NCBI GenBank assembly: GCA_001553355.1
Contig: KQ960844.1
Location: 1-47,648, forward strand
Direction of reading: 5' to 3'
DNA length: 47,648 nt
Origin: Veillonellaceae bacterium DNF00626
GTDB taxonomy: Bacteria > Bacillota > Negativicutes > Veillonellales > Dialisteraceae
Below the pieces are notes generated by a model. The model did no database searches, was not told where the DNA came from, and was given only the letters and a program-made list of their open reading frames with translations. Position 1 is the first letter of the stretch. Each line of letters opens with the position of its first letter. The position numbers and the translations under genes were made by a program. This document shows positions 2,955-7,729 of the stretch, piece after piece.

Positions 2955-3956
2955 CTATTTCACCAAAGAGGATACATAAATAAACTGAATGCCTTCTTGC
3001 AAGAGTTCCGGTACCATGTCACGAAAAGCCGCCGCCGTATGCGGTCGACAATGTCCGATAATAATATATGTACCGTGTGCTTTTGCTCGTTCAGCCCCTT
3101 CGCGAATCATCTGCCGTATTTCGCTTTCATTTGTCGAATTGTCCACAAAAAGTTGATTTCGTGCATAGGGAACGCCAAAAGCTAAACAAGTTTTGTCTGC
3201 CACTGTAGTCGTATTCGTATGGCTATCCAAGAAAAACAGATGCCTTTTAGCTAATTCTTCCGATACGATACTCATCACTCGATAGTCAATCGTTGCTTTC
3301 GATCCTTGATGGTTGTTAATACCGATAACTTCCGGCACTTGGTTCAATGATTCATTCAACATGTTTCGTATGTCATCATCACTCATGGACGTCAAAATAG
3401 TTTTGTCTTCCATGCCCGCGCCGGAAACAGGTTCCATCGGCTGATGCAAAATGACTTCCATGCCATGAGCCACCCATTCTTTGGCTGCCGTACCGGTATC
3501 ATTTTTATTCGGCATGACCGCTAAGGTAAAGGGCACACCTAAACTTTCGTACACCCTTTGAGATGCTAAGTCATAACCGGCATCATCAATGACCACGGCT
3601 AATTTCCCTGTCACTTCTCCCTTAGGCTGTGTGAGTGGGTTCCCCGATTCTTTTGCTCGTGGTATTTCTTTTGTCAATGATTTCTCATTCGTTACCGATG
3701 TCCTATTATCGTCCTTATGCCCCGGAGATAACACTTTTTCAATCCACTGTGTCACTGTGCCTTTTTCTTCGCCACCATTTTTCTCTTGCCACAATGATTC
3801 CACTTCTGAAGAAGCAGTCACCTTTTCCGTTCCTCGTTCTTCCGGCGCGACCATCCACAATGCACCGGCTAATAGAATAAATATAAAGAAAAGGGCTTTT
3901 AAAGAAATACCACTGCCGGTTTGTGTTTTTCTCTTTCGTCTTTTGGTTGCCATCAT
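2955..3956 (-). CDS. Divergent polysaccharide deacetylase family protein (YibQ / COG2861)
   Basis: Exported or membrane-anchored protein of 333 residues. After a basic start (KRRKRK) there is one hydrophobic segment at about residues 19-37, then a polar low-complexity stretch to about 115, then the conserved domain opening with VVIDDAGYD near 121. Later family motifs LHQPMEP, DSHTN and GHCRPHT are present. The family has the NodB-like barrel of polysaccharide deacetylases; its substrate is not established, and a cell-envelope glycan role is inference. Two consecutive ATGs are possible starts; the second (3953) is better spaced from AAAGGAG. It leads the SDR-acpS-nnr group with a 10-base gap. 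Confidence 0.88.
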   Translation of the reverse strand: MMATKRRKRKTQTGSGISLKALFFIFILLAGALWMVAPEERGTEKVTASSEVESLWQEKNGGEEKGTVTQWIEKVLSPGHKDDNRTSVTNEKSLTKEIPRAKESGNPLTQPKGEVTGKLAVVIDDAGYDLASQRVYESLGVPFTLAVMPNKNDTGTAAKEWVAHGMEVILHQPMEPVSGAGMEDKTILTSMSDDDIRNMLNESLNQVPEVIGINNHQGSKATIDYRVMSIVSEELAKRHLFFLDSHTNTTTVADKTCLAFGVPYARNQLFVDNSTNESEIRQMIREGAERAKAHGTYIIIGHCRPHTAAAFRDMVPELLQEGIQFIYVSSLVK

Positions 3957-4022
3957 AAGCTCCTTTGTTTTTCTTTTATTATACGATATCTGAAATACAA
4001 AGGGCTATAAAAATCATCGAAC

Positions 4023-4051
4023 AAAAAAGGTGAGACTTTTCACGGTCTCAC
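4023..4051 (-). terminator. Rho-independent terminator after the YkvI-type gene
   Basis: Seven-base stem GTGAGAC/GTCTCAC (4030-4036 with 4045-4051) followed on the minus strand by a run of six T. It lies 15 bases past the stop at 4066. Confidence 0.85.
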
Positions 4052-4065
4052 TCCTTTTGCATTTT

Positions 4066-5169
4066 TTATTTCTTTAGTCCTCGCATAATAATCACGGGTA
4101 TCATGATAATTCCTAATTGTCCTGCCAGAGGATAGAGAAGTCCAATCAGATTACCAAAGCCGATTTTTGCTCCAAAAAAGGTAATAATTGCCAGAATAAT
4201 ACTTATGACATACATCGCTTTCTTTGGAATACCAAAGCCACCGATATAGTCAACGACTGACCAGAACATAGGAGCAGCCGTGGAGTAAATGCCTAAAAGC
4301 AAAATCACTGAGAAAATAAGGGATAAAATAGGCGCTGTCTGATCAGCTAAGAATAGATTTGGCACTTCCAGTGTAGCTATTTTATCGGGATAGCATAACA
4401 TTGCTAAAATCAAAATAATCACAGGGATCATAAGGAATACGCCACCCGCAATACCGCCATAAATGGCTTCCATTTTTGTTTTAGCAGATGCTCCCAATCC
4501 GCTTAAGAAAGGGATACCGCCTAAAATCATACATGCCGCATACAGAATACCGCTGAAAGCTGCTGTATTGCAAATGCCATATTCACTGAACCACCATCCA
4601 TTTGTCGCACGAAGTTTTGATAGTGCTCCTAATTGTGTCGTTGTCACTTCACCGGGAATTCCTCCTGCCATGATCAACGTTTGTATCCCAATGAGCAGCG
4701 TGAAAACAATAATCACCGGGCCGATAGATCCTATAATATCCACCATGTGACGTAATCCTAATAAAATCGTAACAAGGCAAATAATGGCCATAAGCATACC
4801 GCCCACTTCCGGACTGATTCCGAAATATTCTCGACTCACTGCGCCCGTACCGGCAACCATAATGGATACCACACAGAATAGCAATACGACAGTAAATATT
4901 TCTAATGCAATGCCTACATATTTCCCACAGTAGTAACGAAACGCTGTGGCTTGTATTTTTAATTTCAAGTCATAACCTTTTGCCATAAGAATAGCGCCTA
5001 ACGCGGAAAAGAGTAGCATGCTTACTAAAGCTCCAATGATACCGTCCATACCAAAGGCGGTAAAAAATTGCATCACTTCCTGTCCGGTAGCAAACCCTGA
5101 GCCGATAGTAAAAGCAATATAGGCTCCGGCTAATTTAATGACATTCATCAAACTCCAACTTTTCTCCAT
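4066..5169 (-). CDS. YkvI-type membrane transporter (COG3949)
   Basis: Polytopic inner-membrane protein of 367 residues with about ten hydrophobic segments. The opening GAYIAFTIGSGFATGQE, a first helix broken by glycines and followed by a conserved polar TGQE, is the hallmark of the YkvI family, which belongs to the amino acid/polyamine/organocation type of transporters. Its substrate has not been established to my knowledge. It starts 13 bases after the HisC-like aminotransferase with a strong GGGGAGG site, so the two are co-transcribed; amino acid or keto acid transport is therefore the natural inference, and an aromatic one would fit the leader upstream. Confidence 0.85.
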   Translation of the reverse strand: MEKSWSLMNVIKLAGAYIAFTIGSGFATGQEVMQFFTAFGMDGIIGALVSMLLFSALGAILMAKGYDLKLKIQATAFRYYCGKYVGIALEIFTVVLLFCVVSIMVAGTGAVSREYFGISPEVGGMLMAIICLVTILLGLRHMVDIIGSIGPVIIVFTLLIGIQTLIMAGGIPGEVTTTQLGALSKLRATNGWWFSEYGICNTAAFSGILYAACMILGGIPFLSGLGASAKTKMEAIYGGIAGGVFLMIPVIILILAMLCYPDKIATLEVPNLFLADQTAPILSLIFSVILLLGIYSTAAPMFWSVVDYIGGFGIPKKAMYVISIILAIITFFGAKIGFGNLIGLLYPLAGQLGIIMIPVIIMRGLKK

Positions 5170-5182
5170 AATAATCCTCCCC

Positions 5183-6283
5183 TTATTTCAACTCCAACTC
5201 TACCTGTTTCAATCGACGAATACATTCCTCCGGTTCTGACGGTATACGCAGTCTCACATGACGTTGTCCGATAGCGTCAAAATCTTCGCCTCGTTCGGCT
5301 TTTATTCCATATTTCATGAGCAGTTGATACAAATTCACGTCTTTCTCTGTATATAGAAGAACAATAGGTACTGATAAGTCGCTCACTGACGCATGTAAGA
5401 CAGTCAAACTGTCCAATACTTTCTTCTTATTTACTGCCAATTTCTGCCGACTTATTTCTATATGCTCCCGATCTGCCAACGCCATGGGAATAATTTTTGT
5501 CGCTACCCCGTTTACTGTCATTTCTCCGGGGTATAATGCCATATACGGTTCAAAGTCTTTATGCATCACTAAGTATCCTACACGGAGACCTGCCAAGCCA
5601 AATCCCTTAGAGAATGTCTTAATAGCAATAACATTGGGATAATCATTCACTAAAGTCACGGCAGAATTGGATAAATCCATGAAATCACCATAGGCTTCGT
5701 CAATTATCAGATAAGTATCTTGCGCCAGTGCTTTTTTGGCTATTTTCTCTATGTCTGAAATTGCCATAATTTGTCCGGTGGGATTATTGGGATTATCTAA
5801 GTAGATCACATGATGCTTAGGCGAAAGTCTATTCACTATTTCTTCTACATTCACACGGAAGTGTTCTTTTTCTGAAAGTTCTATCATGTCAATGTGTCCG
5901 CCTAAGGAACGCATATCGCTCAGCGTGGATGAGAAAGTGGGCGCCACTGCGAGAATATTCGTTTCTTCATCAATAATCATCTTATCCAAATTCCAAATGA
6001 CACCCATCGAACCGCCATGAAGTGCCACTTGATCTGCTTTGACGTGCACTATCGGTGATAGATAATCACAAATCACCTGTCTCAACTTTTCATAAGGAAA
6101 ATCGGGATACGCAGAAATGGCATCATACGCTTCTGCAAAGACCTCTTTTGTAATTTTCGGACTAAATCCAAAAGGATTAATTCCGAGTGAGCAGTCAATC
6201 AAATTTTCAGGAAATACTTCATCAGCATGTACATAACTTGTGATTTCATAATGTTCAAGAGACTTACGAATCCTATATTTCAT
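5183..6283 (-). CDS. HisC-like class I/II aminotransferase (histidinol-phosphate / aromatic type)
   Basis: PLP-dependent aminotransferase of 366 residues. The PLP-binding set is intact: NPNNPTG at 164-170, Asp195 and Tyr198 in IIDEAYGDF, and the Schiff-base Lys226 in TFSKGFGLAGLRVGY. A longer reading frame extends to 6346, but AAGGAGGAG just before the ATG at 6283 decides the start. The family covers histidinol-phosphate, aromatic and CobD-type enzymes; no his or cob genes are nearby. It is followed by a YkvI-type transporter and preceded by a leader peptide rich in Phe, Trp and Tyr plus a terminator (6357-6391), so control by aromatic amino acid supply, and hence an aromatic substrate, is my inference. 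Confidence 0.85.
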   Translation of the reverse strand: MKYRIRKSLEHYEITSYVHADEVFPENLIDCSLGINPFGFSPKITKEVFAEAYDAISAYPDFPYEKLRQVICDYLSPIVHVKADQVALHGGSMGVIWNLDKMIIDEETNILAVAPTFSSTLSDMRSLGGHIDMIELSEKEHFRVNVEEIVNRLSPKHHVIYLDNPNNPTGQIMAISDIEKIAKKALAQDTYLIIDEAYGDFMDLSNSAVTLVNDYPNVIAIKTFSKGFGLAGLRVGYLVMHKDFEPYMALYPGEMTVNGVATKIIPMALADREHIEISRQKLAVNKKKVLDSLTVLHASVSDLSVPIVLLYTEKDVNLYQLLMKYGIKAERGEDFDAIGQRHVRLRIPSEPEECIRRLKQVELELK

Positions 6284-6356: not shown

Positions 6357-6391
6357 AAAAAAGGACAATACCCGAATGGATACTGTCCTTT
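6357..6391 (-). terminator. Leader terminator (attenuator) before the aminotransferase
   Basis: On the minus strand the arms AAGGACAGTATCC (6390-6378) and GGGTATTGTCCTT (6373-6361) pair over 13 positions, two of them G-U, around a four-base loop, followed by T residues to 6357. It stands between the leader peptide stop (6432) and the aminotransferase start (6283), the position of a classical attenuator. Confidence 0.8.
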
Positions 6392-6431
6392 AAATCATCT
6401 GTCATTTCATCAAAAGCGTTTACTTTGCTTT

Positions 6432-6617
6432 TCAAATAAAAGTTACTCTTTCTAAGGACAACACCCATTGAGATTTAGCACTATAAAAATAGGCAAAGTC
6501 AAAAGGCCACCAAAAAAAGGTAACTTTAAAAAATCTCCGCAAAGTGGAGAGCTTAAAATTTTCATCACGCAAAGAGAGTGTCTGTAATTTTTGAAGCGTA
6601 TTCATTGACTTATCCAT
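6432..6617 (-). CDS. Aromatic-rich leader peptide, 61 residues
   Basis: Small gene with a very good ribosome site (AAGGAGGG, six bases before ATG) just downstream of a near-consensus promoter. Residues 29-51 contain 12 aromatic amino acids out of 23, including FFWW and YFY runs, mixed with charged residues, so it is not a simple membrane helix. I do not recognise it as a protein family. Its place before a terminator and an aminotransferase gene suggests a translated leader that senses charged tRNA-Phe, -Trp or -Tyr. At 61 residues it is longer than textbook leader peptides, so an independent small protein is the alternative. Confidence 0.65.
   Translation of the reverse strand: MDKSMNTLQKLQTLSLRDENFKLSTLRRFFKVTFFWWPFDFAYFYSAKSQWVLSLERVTFI
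6454..6466 (-). promoter_or_regulatory. Candidate antiterminator arm inside the leader peptide gene
   Basis: The segment GGGTGTTGTCCTT differs by one base from the terminator's 3' arm at 6373-6361. It can pair with the terminator's 5' arm over the same 13 positions (three G-U), so it could compete and prevent termination. It begins at the last Trp codon of the aromatic cluster, the position expected if a stalled ribosome leaves it free. Confidence 0.6.
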
Positions 6618-6650
6618 CACAATCCCTCCTTGTAAATGAAAATTTCATAT

Positions 6651-6679
6651 ATTATATACGATACTTTTCTGATTTGCAA
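6651..6679 (-). promoter_or_regulatory. Promoter of the leader-aminotransferase-transporter operon
   Basis: TTGCAA (6674-6679) and TATAAT (6651-6656) on the minus strand with an optimal 17-base spacer. Transcription would start near 6644, about 27 bases before the leader peptide ATG. Confidence 0.75.
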
Positions 6680-6805: not shown

Positions 6806-7729
6806 TCAGGCACGGGATACTATTTCTTTGGCGCTTTGTATATCTTTTTGTATTTGCACCTTTAATGCTTCTATGGTGTCGAAACGTTTTTCATCACGCA
6901 GTTTTTCTAACCACTCAATGGTTATGTCGTCACCTCGAATATTGCCGGTGAAGGAAATAATAAACGTTTCAATGCTTCTTTCTTTATTTCCAAAGGTGGG
7001 ATTTTTGCCCACGTTTGTCACCGCTCCATAGGTTTTTCCGCCGACTCTGACTTTTGTCGCGTAAACGCCGTCACCGGGAATGACTCTGCTTGTGTCATAA
7101 GCCAAATTGGCGGTAGGGCAAGCCAGGAGTGCTTCACCGCGGCGAAATCCACCGATGACTTGACCGCTTGTCATCAAAGGACGTGTCAAAAGTTCGTTGG
7201 CTTCTTTTATCTTTCCTTGAATGATTTTATCTCGTATGAATGTACTGGAAATAATAGCGCCGTGCGCGGTTCTAAGGGGTACGGTAACTATTTCTGTATC
7301 CGTTCCCTGAAAATATTCCCTCAGTAATGTAATATTTCCTTTCGCGTCTCTGCCGAAGGTGAAATTTTCTCCGGTCACAATACCTTTGATTGTCGATAGT
7401 TCTTTCAATTTCTTTAGAAATATATGTGCTTCTTCGTTTAAAAATTCTTTGGTGGGTCGCATGACGATAATGGTCGAAATTCCCGATTTTTCTATCAACT
7501 TTTCTTTTTCTTTCTCTGTGGTAAGTAGGGAAATCTTTATATCAGGCTTCAAGACGGTGAGCGGATGGGGATAAAAAGTGAAAACGACCGGCGTGGCATT
7601 TTTCTTTTCAGCCATCGCCCGAGCCGCTTGCAGTACATCTTGATGTCCTTGGTGCAATCCATCGAAAAAGCCCATCGCCAAAATGACTCGTTTTTCTTTT
7701 AGTTGTTCTATTTGATTAATAATTTGCAT
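6806..7729 (-). CDS. ribF: Bifunctional riboflavin kinase / FAD synthetase
   Basis: Makes FMN from riboflavin and then FAD from FMN. The 307-residue length is usual. The N-terminal nucleotidyltransferase domain shows GFFDGLHQGH at residues 20-29 and TFYPHP further on; the C-terminal flavokinase domain shows CPTANL and the DGVYA...GKNPTFG motifs. Start ATG follows GAGGAATT, six bases after the truB stop. It is the last gene of the nusA-infB operon, a standard position in Firmicutes. I see no clear terminator after it. Confidence 0.97.
   Translation of the reverse strand: MQIINQIEQLKEKRVILAMGFFDGLHQGHQDVLQAARAMAEKKNATPVVFTFYPHPLTVLKPDIKISLLTTEKEKEKLIEKSGISTIIVMRPTKEFLNEEAHIFLKKLKELSTIKGIVTGENFTFGRDAKGNITLLREYFQGTDTEIVTVPLRTAHGAIISSTFIRDKIIQGKIKEANELLTRPLMTSGQVIGGFRRGEALLACPTANLAYDTSRVIPGDGVYATKVRVGGKTYGAVTNVGKNPTFGNKERSIETFIISFTGNIRGDDITIEWLEKLRDEKRFDTIEALKVQIQKDIQSAKEIVSRA

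Follow-up and report, generated by a model that had tools for sequence, protein, structure and literature searches.

The window, by which we mean the whole stretch of DNA that was analysed (47,648 nucleotides, a contig of a Dialister species), carries a putative attenuator upstream of two genes that encode an aminotransferase and a transporter. The features of this putative attenuator are all on the minus strand, between a ribF-like gene (named by eye) that ends at 6806 and the aminotransferase gene at 6283-5183. In the direction of transcription, the features and the two genes are:

6651-6679, minus strand: candidate sigma-70-type promoter, TTGCAA-17-TATAAT (consensus match only)
6554-6647, minus strand: 5' hairpin in which the leader Shine-Dalgarno (SD) and start region are predicted to pair with codons of the peptide itself (-26.9 kcal/mol, z -4.1)
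6624-6630, minus strand: SD sequence of the leader peptide, AGGAGGG (anti-SD duplex -12.1 kcal/mol)
6432-6617, minus strand: leader peptide ORF, 61 codons (ATG at 6617, stop codon TGA at 6434-6432)
6483-6533, minus strand: candidate control codons F29 to Y45, FFKVTFFWWPFDFAYFY (from sequence; in the ribosome-position model a stall here leaves arm 2b free)
6512-6524, minus strand: arm 1, GTTACCTTTTTTT, within the aromatic codons (covariation and arm-position comparison)
6454-6470, minus strand: arm 2b, the antiterminator arm, CAATGGGTGTTGTCCTT (includes the segment 6466-6454 singled out by an initial annotation of this DNA)
6442-6453, minus strand: arm 2a, the partner of arm 1, AGAAAGAGTAAC (11 of 11 pairs hold in three leaders, 3 of them changed on both sides)
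6378-6391, minus strand: arm 3, the terminator 5' arm (terminator prediction and covariation)
6360-6373, minus strand: arm 4, the terminator 3' arm, then a T run (terminator prediction and covariation)
5183-6283, minus strand: class I/II PLP aminotransferase, HisC/CobD-like, 366 aa (PF00155)
4066-5169, minus strand: APC/LeuT-fold transporter, 367 aa (AlphaFold2 model and Foldseek)

The initial annotation had read this region as a leader-peptide attenuator, and the promoter, the well-initiated 61-codon leader ORF and the terminator that it described are all where it had placed them. An in-frame GTG at 6620 lies ahead of the leader ATG. TATAAT is also found 41-42 nt upstream of the start codon, together with TTG-type -35 boxes, in both related leaders of Dialister micraerophilus that are introduced below; promoter-like sites in a scan of the region showed no excess over shuffled sequences. 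The terminator stem (6391-6360) comprises 14 bp with a predicted energy of -18.8 kcal/mol and is followed by a T run, and the leader RNA as a whole folds with a z of -7.0.

Twelve aromatic codons fall within a stretch of 23 (codons 29-51, 6533-6465), as the initial annotation had counted. This density was reached by 1 of 2000 dinucleotide shuffles of the window ORF, and the other two frames of the ORF hold at best 4 and 6 aromatic codons in 23. The segment 6466-6454 (GGGTGTTGTCCTT) shares 12 of its 13 positions with the terminator 3' arm (GGGTATTGTCCTT), a likeness that the initial annotation had also pointed out; at least 12 matches to the 14-nt 3' arm were found in 2 of 2000 shuffled leaders. 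The proposed ability of this segment to pair with the terminator 5' arm is borne out by the predicted duplex between the post-cluster zone and the terminator 5' half, at -20.2 kcal/mol (3 of 5000 shuffles as strong), and among foreign arms taken from 68 terminator-like hairpins, in the window and at other loci, none reached this energy (best, -17.8). Two details had to be revised. The segment had been placed right after the last Trp codon; it overlaps that codon instead, because TGG occupies 6467-6465. The second detail concerns the role of this Trp codon (codon 51), which belongs to the switch arm: because it lies within arm 2b, and because a ribosome at this position gives a value of 0.03 in the model described below, it cannot be a control codon.

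Two further leaders were found in D. micraerophilus. An operon with an aminotransferase 69% identical and a transporter 67% identical to those of the window, in the same order, is preceded by a leader of 64 codons (leader A), and a leader of 61 codons (leader B) precedes a paralogous stand-alone transporter directly upstream of this operon and its leader (L015:3008-3240 and 3386-4486). The aromatic clusters are FFKVTFFWWPFDFAYFY in the window, VFSVAFFGFFNMAYYYYFY in leader A and VFSVAFSSFFSVFNF in leader B, and the peptides are otherwise dissimilar. In its best 23-codon stretch leader A has 11 aromatic codons (reached by 11 of 2000 shuffles) and leader B has 8 (72 of 2000). Because both D. micraerophilus clusters are free of Trp codons, the conserved signal appears to be Phe plus Tyr. 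Of the three amino acids whose joint sensing the initial annotation envisaged, Phe and Tyr are thus shared by all three leaders, and Trp occurs in that of the window only. Counted from the start codon, arms 1, 2b, 2a and 3 begin at +94, +148, +165 and +227 in the window and at +94, +150, +166 and +225 in leader A, positions that differ by at most 2 nt.

A small hairpin at about 6534-6552 (CTCTCC...GGAGA) lies directly 5' of the aromatic cluster of the window. Leader A has a counterpart, CTCTCTC...GCAGAGAG (L015 about 4718-4745), before its own cluster, and the version in leader B is CTTTC...GAAAG. This hairpin is possibly a pause hairpin.

Aligning orthologous leaders and looking for covariation between the arms had been proposed as a check on the attenuation reading. 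The three leaders, from two species, were aligned and the structure was drawn on those same sequences; both the 1:2a hairpin and the terminator pass. All cells of the 1:2a helix (11 pairs) are paired, with changes on both sides at 3 pairs, and the terminator helix (12 pairs) has such changes at 5, giving 8 of 23 pairs for the 1:2 hairpin and terminator together; with three leaders and two species, this covariation rests on few events. Counting both helices, 98.6% of cells are paired, and shifting the partners by 1-3 columns lowers this to 58% or less.

Arm 2b is out of register between leaders, so the antiterminator could not be scored on the alignment, and duplex energies were compared instead. 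An ungapped identity test missed the arm of leader A because of a one-base gap; the duplex test over the full terminator 5' half found it. The post-cluster zone of the window, at -20.2 kcal/mol with its own arm, reached -13.6 with the arm of leader A and -14.8 with that of leader B. The zone of leader A gave -21.6 with its own arm (4 of 5000 shuffles as strong) and -6.6 and -12.2 with the arms of the other leaders, and the zone of leader B gave -14.3 (118 of 5000) as compared with -7.7 and -7.6. The arm of the window pairs with the terminator of leader B as well as B's own arm does. The predicted antiterminator pairing is thus convincing for the window and leader A, and weak for leader B.

The reading frame through arm 2a differs between the two species (GAA AGA GTA ACT as compared with GAA AAA AGT AAC), and between leaders A and B the changes in arm 2a are synonymous while the pairing with arm 1 is preserved. 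A peptide conserved while the pairing is destroyed had been named as the outcome that would speak against attenuation; the reverse was seen, with the RNA arms kept and the frame of arm 2 different. This comparison indicates that the RNA, not the peptide, is what has been kept across the three leaders. It bears directly on the view that the leader ORF encodes a functional small hydrophobic protein and that the terminator is an ordinary one, merely separating the next gene. The good SD, the length of 61 codons and the motifs VFSVAF and EKSNLC, common to the two D. micraerophilus peptides, would fit such a protein; however, the peptides align poorly across species, the frame of arm 2 is shifted while the RNA is kept, the arm 2a changes between A and B are silent and maintain the pairing with arm 1, and the leader peptide has no match in Pfam or NCBIfam. 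We regard a functional small protein as very unlikely.

The cluster itself is not conserved as a peptide across species (FFWWPFDFAYFY, FFGFFNMAYYYYFY, FSSFFSVFNF), and arrest peptides need specific residues. It is thus highly unlikely that the ribosome is stalled by a nascent chain of the TnaC kind, one in which the peptide itself detects a free aromatic amino acid within the exit tunnel, even though an aromatic-rich peptide does lie 5' of a terminator and such a stall would act on the same arms.

A sensor that reads tRNA or a metabolite directly, a T-box for example, would make the ORF incidental. T-boxes are common in the host genome, with 12 matches, one of them before pheST (gene named by eye). 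Yet Rfam gave no match for the window leader or for those of D. micraerophilus, neither to the T-box (RF00230) nor, at gathering score, to the attenuator families (Trp, Phe, His, Thr and Leu leaders), and in all three leaders the arms lie within the ORF and the codon cluster lies over arm 1. Direct RNA sensing at this operon is, in our judgement, extremely unlikely. With 12 T-box matches in the same genome, T-box and leader-peptide sensing of tRNA would coexist in the host. Two of its T-boxes precede membrane proteins: one (L117, G000:C24:40483-40712) lies before a permease that by eye is bile-acid/sodium symporter-like, followed by an alcohol-dehydrogenase-like gene, and the other (L119, G000:C24:18518-18747) before a membrane protein that by eye resembles a TrpP-type tryptophan transporter.

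Returning to attenuation by a translating ribosome, we modelled the RNA with a ribosome at each codon, folding the RNA 3' of the ribosome and recording, at equilibrium, the probability of arm 3 being paired to upstream RNA while arm 4 is still to be made. In the window this probability stayed near 0.9 for all codons up to 47, a range in which the cluster is being read, and dropped to 0.02-0.03 at codons 51-55. Leader A gave about 0.2-0.5 for most positions 5' of its cluster, rose to 0.85-0.86 at codons 32-48 and was down to 0.25 by codon 55; the high stretch coincides with the cluster (codons 34-47). That a stall frees the antiterminator and passage does not is clear in the model for the window and leader A, and weak for leader B. 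The E. coli trpL control, run in the same model, gave 0.71 with the ribosome at the Trp pair and 0 with it at the stop codon. A ribosome stalled at codons 29-45 of the window would cover arm 1 wholly or partly, thereby freeing arm 2.

Once complete, the terminator wins at equilibrium at nearly all ribosome positions, in E. coli trpL too, and the predicted switch must therefore be kinetic. With no ribosome on the RNA, before arm 4 is made, equilibrium folding gave the antiterminator a probability of 0.91 in the window, 0.54 in leader A, 0.49 in leader B and 0.06 in E. coli trpL; given the value of 0.91 in the window, equilibrium folding does not account for default termination. When the stop codon occupies the A site, and on the assumption that the footprint reaches 15 nt behind the P site, the rear edge of the ribosome has passed arm 2b by a single nt in the window, by 9 nt in leader A and by 21 nt in leader B. 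The initial caveat, that a ribosome at the stop codon would only just be clear of the competing arm, was thus apt for the window, and the ribosome is past arm 2b in all three leaders. Because a ribosome at the stop codon would leave 2b unmasked in each of them, the reset probably consists of the 1:2 hairpin reforming.

All three leaders also have a 5' hairpin in which the SD is sequestered through base-pairing with approximately codons 13-17 of the ORF that it serves. Its predicted energies in the window, leader A and leader B are -26.9, -21.3 and -16.7 kcal/mol, respectively (z -4.1, -3.7 and -3.3). In D. micraerophilus the two hairpins are located at about 4648-4710 and about 2989-3058 of L015; the structure is kept and the sequence differs. 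The hairpin probably closes after the first ribosome has passed and would thereby limit re-initiation.

Taken as a whole, the arms, the antiterminator pairing, the covariation and the same layout in D. micraerophilus support the attenuation reading of the initial annotation. On the strength of sequence comparison and modelling, the window leader is very probably a ribosome-mediated transcription attenuator with the aminotransferase-transporter operon as its target. In the mechanism that we propose, RNA polymerase would start near 6644, and a ribosome would start on the leader ORF while the SD is not yet covered by the 5' hairpin. When charged tRNA-Phe or tRNA-Tyr (in the window species also tRNA-Trp) is short, the ribosome would stall at codons 29-45, on arm 1; arm 2 would then be free, 2b would pair with arm 3 as it emerges, no terminator would form and the operon would be transcribed. 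When the aromatic tRNAs are charged, the ribosome would traverse arm 2 during the synthesis of arm 3, arms 1 and 2a would re-pair behind it and the 3:4 terminator would stop transcription. Further initiations would probably be limited by the SD-burying hairpin.

The products of the putative target operon are poorly annotated. The aminotransferase falls below the cut-off for both the HisC and the CobD models, its closest solved relatives by sequence are HisC-type enzymes, and its specificity may be for aromatic substrates. The transporter has no match in Pfam or NCBIfam; its AlphaFold2 model (pLDDT 88.9) yielded Foldseek matches to APC/LeuT-fold amino-acid transporters, among them BasC, AgcS, AdiC, MhsT and LAT1, and we take it to resemble the YkvI type. 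We infer that the operon handles aromatic compounds. Chorismate synthase, prephenate dehydratase and prephenate dehydrogenase were sought in the host (G000) and in D. micraerophilus (G004), and none was found above cut-off in either genome; both Dialister hosts look like aromatic auxotrophs. Across the order (G000-G060), close orthologues of the aminotransferase (at least 52% identity) are present in 6 of the 7 genomes that lack chorismate synthase and in 1 of the 54 that have it (Fisher p 9e-7, kinship ignored; 4 of the 6 orthologue carriers without chorismate synthase are one family). The seventh genome without chorismate synthase, G005, is also without an aminotransferase orthologue. Since key genes of aromatic biosynthesis are missing in both hosts, the operon probably serves salvage or uptake, and most likely it would import aromatic amino acids or their keto acids and interconvert them. 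In G016, a ZMP/ZTP riboswitch (L007:2663-2740) lies just 3' of the aminotransferase orthologue, and a close homologue of the usual partner transporter was not found there.

A covariance model of the three leaders, run against 380 Negativicutes genomes, gave strong scores only for those three, in two species. Judging from five that were inspected, the other matches (G043 and G049, E 4e-4; G071, 0.018; and weaker ones within the family) look like plain terminators or chance matches that have no aromatic ORFs. The aromatic leader was absent at the orthologous operons of the ERR1855540 MAG, Negativicoccus, the SUG113 MAG and G014-G016, G019 and G025 (Veillonellales). An aromatic-looking ORF at -155 in L006 was set aside; it overlaps an apparent promoter directly before the gene and is without a terminator. 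Of 17 transporter loci whose upstream regions were inspected, the D. micraerophilus paralogue is the only one with a separate leader. We found no report of the window leader in the open-licence papers that were searched.

The sequence comparisons and the model give good support to placing the window leader among the leader-peptide attenuators as a new, aromatic-specific member, whose geometry is unusual and whose setting is an apparent auxotroph. We also think it possible, if on balance doubtful, that the three leaders represent an undescribed attenuator family of the Negativicutes. Such a family would read Phe and Tyr (and Trp in one species) jointly, would control aromatic uptake or keto-acid salvage in the absence of a shikimate route, would reset by a protector hairpin that closes behind the ribosome, not by masking at the stop codon, and would use the conserved hairpin to admit about one ribosome per transcript.

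The window leader would add a covariation-supported aromatic attenuator to a bacterial class whose genomes are rich in T-boxes, and its regulation would give a clue to what two poorly annotated genes do, the aminotransferase and the APC-fold transporter. It also suggests a way in which Dialister species that cannot synthesize aromatic amino acids might react when these run short, and would be a case of attenuation governing scavenging rather than synthesis.

In its overall plan, the window leader resembles the enterobacterial attenuators (trpL and pheL, and the multivalent thrL and ilvL), which likewise combine a control-codon cluster in a leader ORF with protector, antiterminator and terminator arms, and the shape of its modelled ribosome-position profile is the same as that of E. 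coli trpL. It differs from them in that it would read an aromatic mixture, Phe and Tyr (and Trp), and in its target, an aminotransferase-transporter operon in an apparent auxotroph. The geometry differs too: arm 2 of the Dialister leaders lies inside the ORF, 5' of the stop codon, whereas the segment-2 bases of trpL lie just past the stop, and a ribosome at the stop codon masks the switch arm in trpL but would leave 2b unmasked in the Dialister leaders. The host T-boxes detect a lack of amino acids by way of tRNA charging, as the window leader would, and T-boxes commonly act on a terminator; unlike the leader, they bind tRNA directly, without translation of a leader, and none was found at the window operon.

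The initial annotation had called such attenuation rare in Firmicutes, which is fair, yet attenuator peptides are known or proposed elsewhere in the phylum (PMC9413887, PMC5794164). They include his attenuator peptides in the B. cereus group, Peptostreptococcaceae and Erysipelotrichales (PMC9413887) and a Leu-rich ilv leader in Staphylococcus aureus (PMC5794164); for Negativicutes his genes, HisR is described and no attenuator is reported (PMC9413887). These his and ilv systems share with the window leader the phylum and the combination of a leader peptide with alternative terminator and antiterminator, but concern other amino acids and lineages, and their targets are histidine or branched-chain genes. 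Where salvage is concerned, the closest parallel is the trpL of Chlamydia trachomatis, a leader of 59 residues that includes a Trp-rich segment and lies upstream of trpBA (described in PMC3937554). It controls a salvage route for an aromatic amino acid, as the window leader probably does; unlike the window leader, the chlamydial leader responds to Trp only, acts together with TrpR and precedes unrelated genes.
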